Virus record (IMG/VR): IMGVR_UViG_3300047550_001153 | Location: 1-39,534 of that record | Direction: 5' to 3' (one strand) | Origin: a virus | Length of the DNA: 39,534 nucleotides | In this document: piece after piece, positions 18,875 through 39,315 of the stretch | How the letters are laid out: each line of letters begins with the position of its first letter | Position numbering within the stretch: position 1 is the stretch's first letter | Position numbers and translations under genes: made by a program | The notes under the pieces: generated by a model | Told to the model about the DNA's origin: nothing | Database searches by the model: none | The model's input: the letters and a program-made list of their open reading frames with translations, nothing else

Positions 18875-19936
18875 ATGAGTGCTATTCAACTGCGTGATGC
18901 GGCCAAGCATTTCAAGCAGCTACCGCATCAGCTAGCAGCGTGGGATTGGCTACAAGAGCGCATCAGCAAAGAAACGCTAGAGCAGTTTGCTGAGCTGTAT
19001 CGCGCTGATCCTGTCGTTAAAGATCCGCTGCCTGCTGCATGGTTAGCGCCAGCATTGAAGATCATCAAGAAATGGGAGGGCTGCAGGCTAGAAGCCTATC
19101 GCTGTCCTGCTGGCGTACCAACCATTGGGTATGGCGCTACTAGGCTGGCGAATCGTGCAGTGCGGATGGGCGACAAGATCACACAGCAGGAAGCCGATCA
19201 AATGCTGGTGCATGAGGTTGAGAACCTGTTTGCGCCTGGTGTGTTTGAGCTGCTGCCTTTAGCGAAGAAATGGCGCGGTGAGCAGGTAGCAGCCATCGTT
19301 AGCTTTGCCTATAACGTCGGGCTTGGTGCACTAGAAGAAAGCACGCTGCGTAAGCGGATGCTGGCTGGTGAGGAGCCGAACAAGGTTGTAATCGAGGAGC
19401 TGCCGCGCTGGAACAAAGCAGGCAGCAAGGTACTTGAAGGGCTTGTTAACAGAAGAAAGGATGAGGTTGCGCTGTTTACCGGCGGTGCTGTACCCAAGCA
19501 GCAGGAGCCGTTGAAGCTGCGTCCTACATCACCGTTTAGCGTCAAGTTGACGCCGCATATTGCCATCGGTGAGTTTGCGCTTTACAAGGAAGAACGGCGC
19601 TTTGCTGCTGATTATCAGATCAAGACTGCTACAGAGCTGGCTGAGTTTCTGGAAAAGGTACGGGCACACTTTGGTGGCAAACCTGTGATCATTACGAGCG
19701 GCTATCGTCCGGCAGCTATTAATCGTATGGCTGGTGGCGCTAGCAGCTCAGAGCATCTGTACGACGCACCTGATGTAGGCGCTGTTGACTTTTACGTTCA
19801 GGGCGCTGATATTTACAAGGTGCAAGAGTATTGCGACAAGAACTGGGCGTACAGCGTAGGGTATGGCGCACCTAAGGGATTCGTACACCTAGGAATACGT
19901 AAAGGACGCCCTCGCGTTCGCTGGGTTTACGGCTAA
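18875..19936 (+). CDS. Two-domain endolysin: GH24 lysozyme + M15-type peptidase
   Basis: 353 residues. The lysozyme domain (about 55-205) has E68 in KKWEGCRLEAY, C77 in YRCPAG and T83 in PTIGYG, i.e. the E-8-C-5-T spacing of phage lysozymes, with Cys replacing the Asp of T4 lysozyme. The C-terminal domain (about 222-353) looks like a zinc D,D-carboxypeptidase of the M15 type: H294, D305 and H338 are likely zinc ligands (SSSEH, GAVDFY, FVHLG). It would cut both the glycan and the peptide cross-links of the host wall. No signal peptide; release needs a holin. Its stop overlaps the HNH gene stop on the other strand. Confidence 0.87.
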   Translation: MSAIQLRDAAKHFKQLPHQLAAWDWLQERISKETLEQFAELYRADPVVKDPLPAAWLAPALKIIKKWEGCRLEAYRCPAGVPTIGYGATRLANRAVRMGDKITQQEADQMLVHEVENLFAPGVFELLPLAKKWRGEQVAAIVSFAYNVGLGALEESTLRKRMLAGEEPNKVVIEELPRWNKAGSKVLEGLVNRRKDEVALFTGGAVPKQQEPLKLRPTSPFSVKLTPHIAIGEFALYKEERRFAADYQIKTATELAEFLEKVRAHFGGKPVIITSGYRPAAINRMAGGASSSEHLYDAPDVGAVDFYVQGADIYKVQEYCDKNWAYSVGYGAPKGFVHLGIRKGRPRVRWVYG

Positions 19937-20385
19937 AGCCAAGCCCAAGTAGTTCTTTGCTTGATGTGAGTAACTGCAGTAGGACTGACTCCGTATTCAG
20001 CTGCAATAATTTTTCTTTGTCGACTGTCACTTCTGATTGCTAAAACTTGTTCTTTTGTCAGTTTTGATTGGCCGTGGCGACTGCCGATTGGAGCCCTGCC
20101 ATGAGCTTCCGCATCTCTGCGATTTTGCTGAGATGTTCCGTCGTATAGATGATCCGGATTACAGCAGCGACGGTTGCCGCATTTGTGCAAAACCATTCCA
20201 GACGGCTCGCCATAAAAAAGGCGATATGTTGCCCGATGAGCAGCTTGAGCACCACCTAGTCCCCAGTTGCCATAACCAGGTGTTCCGCAACTACCCATCC
20301 ATTCCCAGCAACTACTTGGATGTTTGATTGCGACTTTGCGGCAGTAGTACTCCCAAGGCTCGCTAGCCCTTACAATGTGCCTCAT
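19933..20385 (-). CDS. Free-standing HNH homing endonuclease
   Basis: 150 residues from the inner ATG (20385), preferred because GAGG lies about nine bases upstream; an ATG at 20454 would add 23 residues. The HNH core reads YGNWGLGGAQAAHRATYRLF, GMVLHKCGNRRCCNPDHLYD and GTSQQNRRDAEAHGR, with all His/Asn and the two-Cys pair present. The C-terminal part (SKLTKEQVLAIRSD, then EYGVSPTAVTHIKQ) is a helix-turn-helix of the kind that helps homing enzymes bind DNA. It converges on the endolysin with stop codons sharing three bases. Probably a selfish gene rather than a phage function. Confidence 0.85.
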   Translation of the reverse strand: MRHIVRASEPWEYYCRKVAIKHPSSCWEWMGSCGTPGYGNWGLGGAQAAHRATYRLFYGEPSGMVLHKCGNRRCCNPDHLYDGTSQQNRRDAEAHGRAPIGSRHGQSKLTKEQVLAIRSDSRQRKIIAAEYGVSPTAVTHIKQRTTWAWL

Positions 20386-20461
20386 CAGCTCAGTCCTCGT
20401 GAGTTGGTCACGCTTCAGGGGTTGCAGCCCGCTGAAGCACCCAAATCTTAGCATTAGCGGT

Positions 20462-21446: not shown

Positions 21447-22367
21447 TCAACCCCAACCCCAGATCAAGCTGGAGCTGCTGCTCTGTGTTGAAGGCTTTTT
21501 TGGCGGTCCCTTCCTTAGTATCAGCTTCATTTCGTTTTCAGCGATGTGAACTCGTCGTTTGGTTGTGTCTTGCGCGATGTTGAGGATCTTGGCGATGTCT
21601 CGCATGGATCGAGGTTGATTGTCTTTTAACCCGTGTCGTAGCTCGATGATCTGCCTGCTTAGATCGCTCATGTGATCTAACGCTTGGTGAACAGCTTCAA
21701 TCTTTGTGTCTTGCTCTAGGTCTTCGCCTACAGGATCATCGTGTGCAGCGATCATCTCGATGTAAGTGCTGGCTTCACCGGAGTTGTTGACCTGAGCATC
21801 AAGGCTGCCAGCATCGATAGAAGCTGCCAAGTAATCTTTCATTGCCCGTGGCGTGACGTTAGCCACTTCAGCACATTGTTCAATGCTTGGGTTAAATCCG
21901 TGCAGACGGTTGTGCTCTAGCGTGAAGGCTCGAACTTTACGCAACGCATCAGTTGCGCCGGTAGGCAGTTTGATGATTCGATCTTGTACTTGGATCGAGC
22001 GCATGATGCCTTGCCTGATCCACCAGTAGGCGTAGGTGCTGAACTTGTAGCCTCGTTCAGGGTCAAACAGTTCAACGGCACGAATCAAACCGATGTTGCC
22101 TTCCTGGATTAAATCTTGCAGGGTAAGGCGATTGGTCAGGTGTTTATATTTCTTGGCGACACCGACAACAAGGCGCAGGTTGCCTTGAATCATGCGCTGC
22201 TTTGCACGCTTACCAAGTTTGATGATCCGCTGCTCTGCTTTAGTTGGCTGATCGCTGCAAATCTCATCCATCCGCTTGATAGCGTGACCCAGCTCGATCT
22301 CCTCTGCGCCTGTTAGCAAAGGGATCTTGCCGATTTCATTGAGGTAATCGCGCAGCGTGTCAGACAT
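21447..22367 (-). CDS. Phage-encoded sigma factor, cyanobacterial sigma70 type
   Basis: 306 residues. Region 1.2 is at 3-33 (DTLRDYLNEIGKIPLLT), region 2 at about 60-133 (NLRLVVGVAKKY, DLIQEGNIGLIRAVELFDPE, KFSTYAYWWIRQGIMRSIQ), then region 3, and region 4 at about 230-290. Core binding and promoter melting parts are strongly conserved. Region 4.2, which reads the -35 box, has NIAQDTTKRRVHIAENEMK in place of the usual R-E-R-(I/V)-R-Q-I-E helix, so promoter choice may differ from the host's. A Ser-rich tail ends in WGWG. It should redirect host RNA polymerase to phage genes. No clear ribosome site; a terminator hairpin lies just before the start. Confidence 0.92.
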   Translation of the reverse strand: MSDTLRDYLNEIGKIPLLTGAEEIELGHAIKRMDEICSDQPTKAEQRIIKLGKRAKQRMIQGNLRLVVGVAKKYKHLTNRLTLQDLIQEGNIGLIRAVELFDPERGYKFSTYAYWWIRQGIMRSIQVQDRIIKLPTGATDALRKVRAFTLEHNRLHGFNPSIEQCAEVANVTPRAMKDYLAASIDAGSLDAQVNNSGEASTYIEMIAAHDDPVGEDLEQDTKIEAVHQALDHMSDLSRQIIELRHGLKDNQPRSMRDIAKILNIAQDTTKRRVHIAENEMKLILRKGPPKKPSTQSSSSSLIWGWG

Positions 22368-22373
22368 CAGGAC

Positions 22374-22398
22374 AAAAGAAAGGGGGCGGTTAGCCCCC
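22374..22398 (-). terminator. Rho-independent terminator between SSB and sigma factor
   Basis: On the minus strand a perfect 6-base-pair stem GGGGGC / GCCCCC with a five-base loop is followed by TTTCTTTT. It lies after the SSB stop and only seven bases before the sigma factor ATG, so it may end SSB transcripts and limit, or gate by antitermination, sigma factor expression. Confidence 0.7.
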
Positions 22399-22444: not shown

Positions 22445-22783
22445 TCAGAAGGGCATGTCTGCATCGTCGGTTGCAGCCTTAGGTCGCGGGGGCAACGAGA
22501 AATCGTTGACTGCTACATCAAGTGATGCACCAGGGCTGCCATCTTTACGCTCAAACGTTTCGATGTAAGCCTGCCCGGTAACGGTGACTTGGCTTCCTTT
22601 GGCAAGGAAGTCGTCTACCACCTTGGCGCGTGGACCCCATACAGCACAGCGCAGGGCTGTTGTACGGTCTTCCCCTTTGACTTTTTTGTTCACCATCAGG
22701 GTGAAGTTGGCGACCTCACGATCACCAACGGTCTTGAGTTCAGGATCAGCGGCGAGATTGCCTACTGCGGTGATTTGGAGCAT
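22445..22783 (-). CDS. ssb: Single-stranded DNA-binding protein
   Basis: 112 residues. The OB fold is recognisable: MLQITAVGNLAADPEL, REVANFTLMVNKK, TTALRCAVWGPRAKVV, LAKGSQVTVTGQAYIETFE. The acidic tip ends DDADMPF, like the D-D-x-P-F tip that recruits repair and replication partners in bacterial SSBs. It covers single-stranded DNA in replication and in annealing by the recombinase encoded 200 bases upstream. The start overlaps the end of the preceding gene by 22 bases. Confidence 0.92.
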   Translation of the reverse strand: MLQITAVGNLAADPELKTVGDREVANFTLMVNKKVKGEDRTTALRCAVWGPRAKVVDDFLAKGSQVTVTGQAYIETFERKDGSPGASLDVAVNDFSLPPRPKAATDDADMPF

Positions 22784-25112: not shown

Positions 25113-25141
25113 ATTATGGCACCAAAACGGGTGGAAAGCAA
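25113..25141 (-). promoter_or_regulatory. Sigma70-like promoter for the membrane-HTH to SSB genes
   Basis: Minus-strand -35 TTGCTT (25136-25141) and -10 CATAAT (25113-25118), 17 bases apart, in the gap after dCTP deaminase. The -10 context GTGCCATAATGG matches that of the rightward promoter at 28850, differing at one position of twelve. Confidence 0.6.
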
Positions 25142-28838: not shown

Positions 28839-28855
28839 GCACAGTGTGCCATAAT
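28827..28855 (+). promoter_or_regulatory. Rightward sigma70-like promoter
   Basis: -35 TTGCCG (28827-28832) and -10 CATAAT (28850-28855), 17 bases apart, about 30 bases before the RHH gene start. It begins inside the 5' end of the RecB-like gene. Its -10 shares five of six bases with the leftward promoter on the other strand. Confidence 0.6.
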
Positions 28856-28884: not shown

Positions 28885-29070
28885 ATGACAATCGGCAAGG
28901 CTATCAGCATCGCCATTGACCGCTCAATCCTGGATCGCATTGACCAACTGCAACCTTCGCACTTCACACGCAAAGCTTTTGTCAATCAACTGCTATTTGA
29001 GGCAGTTGAACAACGTTTTCGGTCTTTGACCGTCACAGAGCTCAATGCCCTGAAATCACAGGCAGAATAA
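28885..29070 (+). CDS. Ribbon-helix-helix regulator (61 aa)
   Basis: The N-terminal strand (GKAISIAIDRSILDRIDQL) and the helices (TRKAFVNQLLFEAVEQRFRS) are a typical RHH (CopG/Arc-like) fold. Being first in the rightward transcript, next to a palindrome between two overlapping promoters, it is the best candidate for the phage's early switch regulator. No other repressor is seen in the genome. A short 5-base-pair hairpin (GCAGT / ACTGC) follows the gene, without a T-run. Confidence 0.75.
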   Translation: MTIGKAISIAIDRSILDRIDQLQPSHFTRKAFVNQLLFEAVEQRFRSLTVTELNALKSQAE

Positions 29071-31186: not shown

Positions 31187-31699
31187 GTGCCTTCAATCAA
31201 TAACCTCAAGGCTGACCATAAAAACGCCCGCAAGCGCACTGACCGCTCCGCTGAGCTAATCAAAGAATCCTTACAACGCTACGGCGCTGCGCGCTCCATC
31301 GTCATTGACGAGGAAAACCGCATCCTCGCTGGCAACGGCACCGTAGAAGGCGCCAAAGCAGCAGGCATCAAAAACGTCCGCATCATAGAAACTGATGGTG
31401 ACGAAATCATTGCCATCCGGCGCACTAACCTCACTGAAGAAGAAAAAGTAGGTCTTGCCTTGGCAGATAACCGCACATCTGATCTCAGCGAGTGGGATCA
31501 AGAAATGCTTCACAGGCTGTCGCAAGATCATGATCTCTCCCCTTGGTTTGAACAAGAAGATCTGTCAGCATTAGGTTTAGAATCCCCTGACTTTGATGCT
31601 GCTTCAGAAGATGATCAAGGACAGTTAGACAAGCTCGATAAAAAAGAAATCGATTGCACCTGCCCTGCTTGTGGTCATGAGTTCATCCAACAAATCTGA
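31187..31699 (+). CDS. ParB-like nuclease-domain protein with zinc ribbon
   Basis: 170 residues, GTG start. The ParB/sulfiredoxin domain (about 5-85) shows DHKNARKRTDRSAELIKESL, GAARSIVIDEENRILAGNGT and EGAKAAGIKNVRII; a helical part follows (LALADNRTSDLSEWDQEML). The C-terminus has a C-x-C-x2-C layout (DCTCPACGHEF) that may bind zinc. Such phage proteins usually sit beside DNA-modifying enzymes, as here with the Mom-like gene, which it overlaps by 23 bases. It probably guides or regulates modification. Confidence 0.8.
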   Translation: MPSINNLKADHKNARKRTDRSAELIKESLQRYGAARSIVIDEENRILAGNGTVEGAKAAGIKNVRIIETDGDEIIAIRRTNLTEEEKVGLALADNRTSDLSEWDQEMLHRLSQDHDLSPWFEQEDLSALGLESPDFDAASEDDQGQLDKLDKKEIDCTCPACGHEFIQQI

Positions 31700-32402
31700 T
31701 CTCAAAATTGACTGGGCTTCTCATGAAGCCGCAAAATATGCTTGCGAAAACTGGCACTACAGTCGCTGTCTGCCTGTTGGAAAACTTGTCAAGGTCGGTG
31801 CATGGGAAGATGGCAAATACATAGGCTGCGTCATATTTGGTCGTGGTGCAAACCACAATATGCTCAAACCATTCGGACTAAAACAAGATGAAGGCTGCGA
31901 GCTTGTCCGTGTTGCATTAAAAATGCATAAAACACCAGTTTCACGCATCCTTGCCATATCACTAAAATTTCTCAAAGCAAAATGCCCTGAACTAAGGCTC
32001 GTCGTCAGCTACGCAGATGCTGACCAGGATCACCACGGTGGCATTTATCAAGCAACAAACTGGATATACGATGGCCTGAAAAATCAAGGCACCATGGGAG
32101 CCTTTATCGTTAAAGGTAAAAAAATGCACCCTAAATCCGTCCACAGCAAAGGTGTAAAACAAACAATCGAACACGTCCGCAAATATCTTGACCCAAACGC
32201 ATCAATCTTCTACACACAAGGCAAACATAGATACCTCATGCCGCTAGATCAAAAAATGCGTGCTAAACTTGAACCGTTGGCTCAGCCATACCCCAAGCGC
32301 GAGAAGCAGGCGAACGTCGGGACCACCGACACAGCGGCGGAGCATCACCGACCCTCGCGCTCCAATTCCACTAATCAGGAGCTGGTTGATCATGCCAGCT
32401 AA
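31677..32402 (+). CDS. Mom-like DNA modification protein (GNAT-fold)
   Basis: 241 residues from ATG 31677 (GTG 31671 is possible). Blocks WHYSRCLPVGKLVKVGAWED (26-45), YIGCVIFGRGAN (48-59), CELVRVAL (74-81), VSRILAISLKFLK (88-100), RLVVSYAD (107-114) and GGIYQATNW (121-129) follow the Mom family of phage Mu and relatives, which convert adenine to N6-methylcarbamoyl-adenine and protect DNA from restriction. The H-Y pair (27-28), D114 and Y124 fit the family's key positions. The tail after 215 is polar and overlaps the terminase small subunit. Confidence 0.8.
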   Translation: MSSSNKSDLKIDWASHEAAKYACENWHYSRCLPVGKLVKVGAWEDGKYIGCVIFGRGANHNMLKPFGLKQDEGCELVRVALKMHKTPVSRILAISLKFLKAKCPELRLVVSYADADQDHHGGIYQATNWIYDGLKNQGTMGAFIVKGKKMHPKSVHSKGVKQTIEHVRKYLDPNASIFYTQGKHRYLMPLDQKMRAKLEPLAQPYPKREKQANVGTTDTAAEHHRPSRSNSTNQELVDHAS

Positions 32403-32715: not shown

Positions 32716-34031
32716 GCATCCTTGACGCACTACCAGGCGGCACACTCCTAGATGAGCCTGTCCTCGTAGCGCCAGTCAAAGACTGGTCGTACCTTGCCGA
32801 CCAGCTTTATAACAGCCTCACTGATCCGCAGCGTGAAGTATGGGATAGCACCGCCCGCTTCAAACTGCTTTGCTCCGGGCGACGTTTTGGTAAAACCTAC
32901 CTTTGCATCGCACGGCTTGTTGCTTGGGCAGTCAGCAAGCCAGGCAGTCTGAACTGGTACGTCACGGCGAACTACCGGATGGCAAAGCAGATCGCATGGC
33001 GCCAGCTCAAAACCATGGTGCCCGCTGACATCTGCATCAAACGCAACGAATCAGAGCTATCAGTCGAACTGTCTAACGGCAGCATCATTGCCTTGAAGGG
33101 CGCCGAAAATGCTGACAGCCTGCGCGGCGTTAGCCTTTCAACCCTCGTCATAGACGAAGCCGCATACGTCAAACAAGACGCATGGGAAATGGTGCTGCGC
33201 CCGGCATTGTCAGACCAAGGCGGTCCAGCCTGGTTCATTACAACGCCTGCTGGCTTGAACTGGTTTCACGACTTATGGGAGCAAGCGCAGGATGAAGGTG
33301 ACTGGGAAACCTACAGCTACACCACAGTTCAAGGTGGCAACGTCCCGCCTGATGAAATCGAGGCAGCACGGCGCACGCTAGACGAACGCACATTCCGCCA
33401 GGAATACCTCGCCTCCTTTGAAACCCTATCCGGACGTGTCTACCCTGACTTCAGCGACGATAACGTCACTGACAATGCCAAAGACACCGGCGGAGAAATC
33501 TACTGGGGAACTGACTTTAACGTTAGTGTCATGGCTGGCGTTCTGGGCAGTCGCGTCGGTGACACTCTGCATATCTGGGATGAACTAGCCGTCAACCAGT
33601 CCAACACCGATGAAGTGTGCCAGCTCCTAAAAGCACGCTTCCCGGATCGCCGCATCATCGCCTACCCAGACCCGACAGGCTCCGCCAGGAAAACCAGCTC
33701 AGCCGGCAGAACCGACCACGACATCATCCGCCGCTACGGCTTCCAATGCGTTAGCCCCAAGGCGCCATGGGCAGTTAAGGACAAGATCAACGCAACCAAC
33801 TGGATGATTCGCACCGCTGACGGGCACCTAAAACTTTTCATCCACCCACGCTGCAAGCACACGATCAAAGCCCTGAAGAACGTGACCTACAAGCAGGGCG
33901 CAGACGATTACGTCATCGACAAATCAGCAGGCATCGAGCACTGGACTGATGGCTTGGGCTACCTGATCCTTGGTGCCTTCAATCCGCTGTACGAACGGGC
34001 TGGCAAAGGGACTGGCATTAGGGTATATTGA
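32712..34031 (+). CDS. terL: Terminase large subunit
   Basis: 439 residues, GTG start overlapping the small subunit stop. ATPase: Walker A CSGRRFGKT (54-62), Walker B LVIDEAAY (145-152) and the coupling motif ITTPAG. Nuclease: GTDFN (D268), YPDP (D320) and WTDGLGY (D413) provide the RNase H-like acidic triad. It pumps DNA into the head and cuts it. All catalytic residues are present. A terminator hairpin follows at 34200, so the early-right transcript ends after this gene. Confidence 0.95.
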   Translation: MSILDALPGGTLLDEPVLVAPVKDWSYLADQLYNSLTDPQREVWDSTARFKLLCSGRRFGKTYLCIARLVAWAVSKPGSLNWYVTANYRMAKQIAWRQLKTMVPADICIKRNESELSVELSNGSIIALKGAENADSLRGVSLSTLVIDEAAYVKQDAWEMVLRPALSDQGGPAWFITTPAGLNWFHDLWEQAQDEGDWETYSYTTVQGGNVPPDEIEAARRTLDERTFRQEYLASFETLSGRVYPDFSDDNVTDNAKDTGGEIYWGTDFNVSVMAGVLGSRVGDTLHIWDELAVNQSNTDEVCQLLKARFPDRRIIAYPDPTGSARKTSSAGRTDHDIIRRYGFQCVSPKAPWAVKDKINATNWMIRTADGHLKLFIHPRCKHTIKALKNVTYKQGADDYVIDKSAGIEHWTDGLGYLILGAFNPLYERAGKGTGIRVY

Positions 34032-34199: not shown

Positions 34200-34229
34200 G
34201 CCGTCACACCAGTGGCGGCTTTCTGTTTT
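34200..34229 (+). terminator. Rho-independent terminator after terminase
   Basis: Eight-base-pair stem GCCGTCAC / GTGGCGGC (one G-U pair) with an ACCA loop, followed by TTTCTGTTTT. It lies in the 236-base gap 34032-34267, the longest gene-free stretch in the genome, which otherwise holds a second small stem (ACGGCA / TGCCGT near 34037-34056) and a -10-like TATACT. Confidence 0.65.
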
Positions 34230-34234
34230 AGGGC

Positions 34235-34240
34235 TATACT
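34235..34240 (+). promoter_or_regulatory. -10-like element before the cyAbrB gene
   Basis: TATACT follows the terminator and is 28 bases before the cyAbrB start, in the context TTTAGGGCTATACT. A similar ATTAGGGTATATT lies at 34017-34029. No good host-type -35 is found at either, so if real they may be read by the phage sigma factor or another factor. Weak evidence. Confidence 0.35.
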
Positions 34241-34267: not shown

Positions 34268-34609
34268 ATGCTCACCGGCTCCGAACTCATCGCCAAAGTC
34301 AAAGAATGCGGCGATATGAACAAGTCTGATCTCGTCCGCGAGTGTGGCTACGTCAAAGGCGACAAGCTCTGCTTCACCCAGTTCTACGAAGCACTGCTCG
34401 AAGCCAAAGGTTTTGAACTCAAGCCTGCTGCTAAGCGTGGTCGCAGCCTGACCTACAAAACCAAAGTGCAGTTCAACGGCAAACTGTCCATCGGTGAAGG
34501 TTACGTTCAGGAAATGGGCTTCAAACCTGGCGATGAGTTTGAGATCAAACTTGGTCGCAAGTCTGTTACCCTTTCCGCCGCTACCAGTGAACAACCTGTA
34601 GCAGCCTAA
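34268..34609 (+). CDS. Cyanobacterial AbrB-like transcription regulator (cyAbrB)
   Basis: 113 residues. The N-terminus (LTGSELIAKVKECGDMNKSD, then LVRECGYV) and the C-terminal AbrB DNA-binding part (YKTKVQFNGKLSIGEGYVQE, MGFKPGDEFEIKLGRKSVTL) follow host cyAbrB proteins, which control carbon/nitrogen balance and are nearly universal in cyanobacteria. It stands alone between terminase and portal with its own terminator/promoter-like region. It probably overrides or mimics the host regulator. Strong evidence for a cyanobacterial host. Confidence 0.88.
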   Translation: MLTGSELIAKVKECGDMNKSDLVRECGYVKGDKLCFTQFYEALLEAKGFELKPAAKRGRSLTYKTKVQFNGKLSIGEGYVQEMGFKPGDEFEIKLGRKSVTLSAATSEQPVAA

Positions 34610-38594: not shown

Positions 38595-38611
38595 GCTGGT
38601 ACGATACCAGC
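38595..38611. promoter_or_regulatory. Inverted repeat between divergent genes
   Basis: GCTGGTA-CGA-TACCAGC, perfect seven-base arms. It lies between the minus-strand gene (start 38584) and the scaffold gene (start 38635), and could be an operator for both or an RNA hairpin in the scaffold leader. A second small stem (AAGCC / GGCTT, 38618-38630) follows it. Confidence 0.45.
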
Positions 38612-38634: not shown

Positions 38635-39315
38635 ATGTCTGATGAAAACCAAACCCAAGAGCCTGCGGCTACTGGGGTTGATGCTGAAGCGTTGCAGCGC
38701 AGCGTAGAAGCTCTTGAGCGTAAAAACCAAGAACTGATCGCTGAACTACGCAGCGCCAAATCCAAAGCACCAAAGCTGCCGGATGGGGTAAACGTCGATG
38801 AGCTGCTCGAATTCAAACGCAACTACGAACAGCAACAGCTCGAATCACAAGGCAAGTATCAAGAGGCAAGGCAAGCTCTGGAGCAGCAGTTCCGCGAGGC
38901 GACGGCGGAGAAGGACAAGCGCATCTCAGAGCTTGAAGCCCGTGTCCGCGAACTTGAACTGCTAACGCCTGCGGTCAGCGCATTGGCTGACATCGTGCAT
39001 GATCCTGACTTGGTGATGAAAACTAAGCTCTCGCCAGACAAGATTGAGCGCGAAGCTGATGGCACTGTCGTGGTGGTAGACGGCTACCAGCGCACACCCG
39101 TTAGCGAGTGGGCAAAGCAAACCCTGCCAGCTTGGATGCAAAAGCAACCTAAGCCACAGGGCAGCGGCGCACCCGTTGGTCGCAGCAGTGGCGACGTACC
39201 AGCAGGCATCAAAAACCCCTTCCTGCCTGAATCTTTCAACCTCACCGAACAGTCACGCCTGTTCCGTACTGATCGTGATTTGTACGAGAAATTGAAAGTA
39301 GCAGCGGGACGTTAG
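38635..39315 (+). CDS. Capsid scaffold protein
   Basis: 226 residues directly before the coat gene. Acidic, with long coiled coils at about 15-45 and 60-110 (LQRSVEALERKNQELIAELR, EKDKRISELEARVRELELL), a central small domain (DPDLVMKTKLSPDKIEREAD) and a C-terminal helix (LFRTDRDLYEKLKVAAGR) that would bind the coat protein. This is the usual form of a separate scaffold that guides prohead assembly and leaves before packaging. An 83-base leader precedes the coat gene. Confidence 0.85.
   Translation: MSDENQTQEPAATGVDAEALQRSVEALERKNQELIAELRSAKSKAPKLPDGVNVDELLEFKRNYEQQQLESQGKYQEARQALEQQFREATAEKDKRISELEARVRELELLTPAVSALADIVHDPDLVMKTKLSPDKIEREADGTVVVVDGYQRTPVSEWAKQTLPAWMQKQPKPQGSGAPVGRSSGDVPAGIKNPFLPESFNLTEQSRLFRTDRDLYEKLKVAAGR

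Follow-up and report, generated by a model that had tools for sequence, protein, structure and literature searches.

A sigma-70 family gene behind an intrinsic terminator in a probable picocyanobacterial siphovirus genome

The sigma gene and its neighbours

The window, by which we mean the whole stretch of 39,534 nt that was analysed, closes on itself through a 127-bp end repeat and is therefore probably a complete, circularly closing genome of 39.4 kb. Its rightward genes are terminase, portal, head and tail genes and lysozyme, while the leftward genes are HNH, sigma, ssb, annealing protein, RusA-like resolvase, dCTP deaminase and exonuclease. As predicted from these genes the order is of the cyanosiphovirus type, and since, in addition, the nearest named DNA is that of KBS-S-2A (Synechococcus WH7803; 81% identity over 1 kb in the capsid gene), the host is probably a picocyanobacterium. 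The HNH endonuclease gene (19933-20454, minus strand, PF13392) lies at the convergent end, adjoining lysozyme. A Mom-family DNA modification protein is encoded in this cyanosiphovirus at 31671-32402 on the plus strand (PF25680, E=6.5e-47; phrog_1384) and is adjoined by a ParB-like/methyltransferase-like gene at 31187-31699. The features on which this report bears are collected in Table 1; in S-CBS3 an ssb gene is annotated near the place corresponding to that of the ssb-like gene.

Table 1. Positions of the sigma gene, its parts, the adjoining features and the candidate late promoter elements in the window
Feature	Position	Strand	Basis or remark
Sigma-70 family factor, 306 aa, ATG start	21447..22367	-	ORF, Pfam, phrog_351, NCBIfam
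Region 2 (core binding, -10 reading)	21978..22193	-	Alignment, Pfam
Region 4.2 recognition helix (residues 265-282), divergent	21522..21575	-	Alignment, conservation, model
3' tail, residues 287-306 (GPPKK...SLIWGWG), synonymous sites frozen	21449..21509	-	Codon conservation
NrdR-type zinc-ribbon protein, 80 aa	21201..21443	-	PF22811, 28.6 bits (cut-off 27.2)
Intrinsic terminator GGGGGCTAACCGCCCCC-TTTCTTTTG	22373..22398	-	Tail ends 5 nt before sigma ATG
ssb-like gene (ends DDADMPF)	22445..22783	-	Sequence; last gene ahead of terminator, upstream of sigma
Conserved -10-like element GCTATACT (the 34235 element)	34233..34240	+	27 nt before ATG of gene 34268-34609
Second candidate late -10, TACGAT	38600..38605	+	29 nt before scaffold-like gene 38635-39315

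A first-pass annotation had placed a phage sigma factor on this ORF, and its exact coordinates, start codon and length were confirmed. Regions 1.2, 2, 3 and 4 are all present. The Pfam domains Sigma70_r1_2 (49.3 bits, cut-off 22) and Sigma70_r2 (74.6 bits, cut-off 24) are over threshold and Sigma70_r4 (27.2 bits, cut-off 24.1) is barely above it, and with all three above the curated cut-offs the protein belongs to the sigma-70 family; it likewise belongs to phrog_351, RNA polymerase sigma factor (E=5.7e-68, residues 47-292). The earlier reading of regions 1.2 and 2 as similar to a host primary sigma factor is supported, both being of the host-core type. The best NCBIfam match is TIGR02997 (cyanobacterial RpoD-like; RpoD/SigA, group 1/2), but the score of 248.4 bits is below the curated 384.5 bits, and TIGR02997 is thus the nearest family without the window sigma being a member under the curated rule. 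An assignment to the ECF (group 4) factors does not fit because region 1.2 is present and the region 3 helices were aligned and modelled. T4 gp55 is a late sigma factor that lacks sigma region 4, from which the window sigma differs in having all regions from 1.2 to 4, region 4 being found both by Pfam and in the model. A Foldseek search with the model returned sigma factors as the best matches, with SigA of S. elongatus at the top, at low overall TM-scores of 0.34-0.39, which probably reflect a different placing of the domains in the free model.

It had also been claimed that phages rarely carry such a full sigma70-type factor. This does not hold, since 276 of 50,697 phage records match the window sigma in tblastn and putative sigma factors have been reported in 65 of 153 cyanophage genomes (PMC10452541). 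IMG/VR yielded 33 loci, some 30 of which have 53-93% identity, and no close prophage copy was found in 84,980 bacterial and archaeal genomes scanned with the same peptide patterns. The named homologues, at 37-41% identity, are those of S-CBS3 (rpsD4, 'group 2 sigma factor'), KBS-S-2A (RpoD), S-CBS1 and S-LBS1. All four have the domain layout of the window sigma and occupy a comparable place in the genome, distal in the leftward module, and in S-CBS1, S-CBS3 and S-LBS1 the gene is also close to the convergent lysozyme end. An R-E-x-[IV]-R-Q core is retained by region 4.2 of S-CBS1, S-CBS3 and KBS-S-2A but not by that of S-LBS1. Unlike the window clade, all four are without the terminator ahead of sigma and without the SLIWGWG/frozen 3' end described below, and an NrdR-type zinc ribbon beside sigma was not seen in them.

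Region 4.2 and the residues facing the promoter

The -35-reading helix of the window sigma is IAQDTTKRRVHIAEN. The usual RERIRQIE is absent, as the first-pass annotation had said, and the string that it quoted, AQDTTKRRVHIAE, is found at residues 265-277; phmmer alignments to solved sigma factors end at about residue 270, within this helix. At the positions of E. coli R584, E585, R588 and Q589 the window sigma has Q, D, K and R, and over the clade the residues at R584, E585 and Q589 are Q, K or R; D or E; and R, K or (Q), respectively. R584 and E585 read -31 and -33 in E. coli (PMC2613000), and conservation of R584, E585 and Q589 is high in the sigma70 of many phyla (PMC8407463). The R584/E585/Q589-type residues by which a cyanobacterial group 2 factor would be recognised are therefore replaced by Q/D/R, and the window sigma differs from the group 2 factors of TIGR02997 in its recognition-helix residues and in the T440 and H455 equivalents.

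Compared with 30 further sigma genes (one from a jumbo phage and 29 from bacteria or plasmids, the cyanobacterial ones being plasmid-borne in place of chromosomal), the clade is far more uniform everywhere but in the 4.2 helix-turn-helix. Identity in region 2.3-2.4 is 0.91 in the clade as against 0.65 among the cellular sigma factors and in region 1.2 it is 0.84 as against 0.38, whereas in the recognition helix it is 0.44 as against 0.55. When segments of 18 residues were slid along the protein, the clade was less conserved than the unrelated cellular factors in 16 of 267, and since all 16 start at residues 252-267 the difference in the -35 helix is more than chance. Among relatives of at least 78% identity, pN/pS of the helix is 0.10 and equals that of region 2; over the whole clade it is 0.58, the highest of the sigma domains. 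The helix thus looks lineage-specific rather than decayed because it is strongly constrained within close relatives and decay would not give a value of 0.10, and the simplest reading of this pattern would be a lineage-specific -35 contact. The hydrophobic pattern of the helix is intact in the alignment, and the predicted structure has an intact helix at 266-286 with pLDDT of about 83-85 up to residue 280.

The T440-equivalent in region 2.4 is Met and the H455-equivalent in region 3.0, just downstream of region 2, is Gly, both invariant in the clade. Because of these two residues the reading of -12 and of the extended -10 may be shifted too; a T440I change suppresses a T to C change at -12 (PMC2613000). 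The occurrence of Met at 440 in the non-cyanobacterial comparison factors is biased since the pattern WWIRQGIM had served to retrieve their loci. Between genes CATAAT is enriched 4.1-fold and perfect TATAAT, at 0.87-fold, is not; as orthologous sites entered the count more than once and no more than about four are independent, the enrichment taken together with Met at the T440 position is a lead and not a result. For TGNCATAAT the enrichment between genes of the clade is about 20-fold, and TATAAT shows none.

Candidate late promoters

Two TATA-like late elements, at 34024 and 34235, had been offered as possible targets of the sigma factor, and only the second can be kept. The letters at 34024 are the end of the coding sequence for the terminase C-terminus (GTGIRVY-stop), and the corresponding TATAYT-like letters in relatives encode Tyr. 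The 34235 element is kept in all 11 relatives examined, at an equal distance of about 27 nt from the next ATG in the relatives aligned, and the T, A, T and last T of its hexamer are invariant in nine thinned sequences. The sequence upstream of it is unrelated among relatives and consists in some phages of terminase coding DNA or of a terminator. It is correct, then, that this element has no host-like -35 box, in the sense that the -10 is conserved among relatives and the -35 is not; a -35 motif common to the late promoters of close relatives was looked for and not found, and no upstream activator site is conserved among relatives. Information at the -35 position is about 1.0 bit against a local mean of 0.47, and a weak -35 preference is conceivable. 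In the window a terminator-like hairpin follows the terminase gene (34200-34230, plus strand) and its T-run enters the conserved -10; some relatives have this hairpin and others do not. The second candidate, at 38600, is represented in several relatives by TACGAT, TACCAT, TATGAT or TATAGT at 29-30 nt and is weaker than 34235.

The weight that had been put on the missing -35 box as the mark of a special sigma factor is not justified. No -35 consensus is seen in cyanobacterial promoters (PMC3219970), and cyanobacterial type II promoters typically have a -10 without a -35 (PMC4181335), a pattern comparable to that at 34235. A -10-only pattern does not in itself call for a special sigma factor because cyanobacteria generally show no -35 consensus.

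For the same reason, changes in region 4 may matter little, and the sigma may be an ordinary group 2-like factor that boosts host-type transcription from about the same promoters and redirects the host RNA polymerase or metabolism. When the sigma factors of S-CBS2 and S-CBS3 were expressed in S. elongatus, growth and acetyl-CoA changed (Sawa 2019, reviewed in PMC10452541), which is consistent with such a role. We nevertheless regard it as unlikely, since the recognition helix is constrained within lineages and changed between them and since R584, E585 and Q589, so widely conserved elsewhere (PMC8407463), are not found in the window sigma. Somewhat less likely still is that region 4.2 is dispensable and drifting, the sigma working at -10-only promoters as T4 gp55 does without region 4. 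The invariant -10 core at 34235 below unrelated upstream sequence would agree with drift, as would the fact that over the clade no sigma domain is less conserved than this helix, but the helix is under as much constraint as region 2 among close relatives, its fold and hydrophobic pattern are preserved, and at 34235 the information at the -35 position slightly exceeds the background.

The terminator, the frozen 3' end and the proposed control of late genes

Two features that the first-pass annotation had missed, the terminator ahead of sigma and the frozen 3' element, are the stronger and more unusual findings at this locus. The terminator is perfect in every complete member, and in the window it is the strongest stop-transcription signal in the genome. 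A hairpin with a T-run is present ahead of sigma in every member with complete upstream sequence and is often the sole content from the ssb stop to the sigma ATG. Under strict criteria 19 records yielded 28 terminators as against 4 in shuffled copies; the one ahead of sigma was found in 17 genomes, the window included, and was missing only from G019, a record cut off inside the sigma gene, and from the more distant KBS-S-2A. Ten of these 17 genomes yielded no other strict terminator. The compact members leave no room for a promoter between terminator and ATG, and therefore the sigma mRNA must cross the terminator. The position of sigma directly behind a terminator suggests a gated switch to the late viral genes; none of the early ORFs of the window was recognised as an antiterminator gene.

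At the other end of the gene the last codons, AGC TCC AGC TTG ANC TGG GGY TGG, have synonymous sites that are almost wholly identical in 19 thinned sequences. This is the gene's top segment for synonymous conservation, at 0.64 over expectation (mean 0.15, sd 0.10; about 4.7 sd). The tail core, CAGCTCCAGCTTGATCTGGGGTTG at 21454-21477, is able to fold into a 9-bp hairpin, or into one of 11 bp if extended to 21449, and the 11-bp register is the more stable and takes in the GGGG that precedes the next start codon. At the DNA level the 25-nt core was found in 35 viral contigs, one copy in each and always at the sigma 3' end, and a looser tail pattern matched 20 other contigs. A signal in the SLIWGWG protein sequence alone was rejected, since the codons are frozen too, the model has no structure there and the DNA core occurs only at sigma 3' ends. 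In all contigs bearing the element a single codon separates the sigma stop from a small zinc-ribbon gene that starts with ATG or GTG; in the window this is an ATG, in frame. Stop readthrough to a fusion of sigma and zinc ribbon is unlikely because, while the frame is shared everywhere, TGA, TAA and TAG are all used. The downstream protein resembles the N-terminal zinc ribbon of NrdR, being above the Pfam cut-off, but differs from NrdR in having no ATP-cone match (TIGR00244 matched only profile positions 3-47 of 147) and in its length of 80 aa as against about 150.

The likeliest explanation of the frozen 3' end is that the hairpin would hide the next ribosome site and so couple translation of the two genes. 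Its main rival is that the element is a recombination joint for exchange of the zinc-ribbon module, or a DNA binding site, because different zinc-ribbon genes stand behind nearly identical sigma genes (loci L028 and L029), an exchange that also argues against a tight fit between sigma and zinc ribbon; the absence of any hairpin pair with changes on both sides and a folding energy that is not unusual (z -0.4 to -2.2) would suit it as well, but we think it improbable, since the next gene is in every case a small zinc ribbon, in the same frame and at an unchanged spacing, and the one-sided changes at variable positions, including those in the 3' arm, keep pairing in 98.6% of cells, a figure derived from the same sequences as the hairpin.

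The main idea of the first-pass annotation, putative host core binding with a possible new promoter choice, survives in a refined form that no longer includes rarity, the 34024 target or the weight on the missing -35. The phage factor would be of the cyanosiphovirus 'group 2/RpoD-like' type, with a host-like region 2 that would bind the host RNA polymerase core; the -10 element would be read much as by host sigma factors and the -35-facing helix would be lineage-specific. Sigma would be the distal regulatory gene of the leftward early operon, and the terminator before its start codon would delay and limit it, such that it is made only via readthrough or antitermination after the early genes. 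An RNA-level element in the sigma 3' end would couple its translation to that of the NrdR-type zinc-ribbon protein, and sigma, perhaps with this protein, would then drive late rightward transcription from promoters with a -10 and no conserved -35, such as 34235, with GCTATNNT-type sites as the expected late 5' ends. That a readthrough-gated late sigma factor is coupled translationally to a zinc-ribbon partner is, taken as the whole explanation, slightly favoured in our judgement. A stronger version, in which the -35-reading surface is retargeted from lineage to lineage while the -10 surface stays fixed, giving private late promoter sets to a terminator-gated factor tied by an RNA element to its zinc-ribbon partner, is put forward only tentatively.

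The sigma factors of T4 (gp55) and of phiEco32/7-11, like the one proposed here, switch RNA polymerase to late or middle promoters; the promoter layout of 7-11/phiEco32 has been described (PMC4331800). The Prochlorococcus siphovirus P-SS2 likewise has its own sigma-70 factors, proposed to modulate the host RNA polymerase (PMC2784084), and differs in that its group 2 sigma is proposed to read canonical sigma-70 promoters, in its genome of more than 100 kb and in a second (group 3) sigma. Late-gene control in cyanosiphoviruses appears to be unmapped in the literature consulted. The clade is a natural series with near-identical core and -10 regions and different -35 helices, which would make -35 specificity directly testable on host polymerase. 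Two concrete switches, a terminator right at a regulatory gene's start codon and the frozen putative coupling element, are testable as well.

Extended -10-like sites of the form TGCCATAAT, with C at -12, are present at 28847-28855 (plus strand) and 25113-25121 (minus strand) and are candidate early promoters. A 61-aa ORF at 28885-29070 (plus strand), without a Pfam or PHROGs match and possibly, by eye, a ribbon-helix-helix protein, has divergent promoter-like elements on one side and a leftward terminator (29104-29073) on the other.
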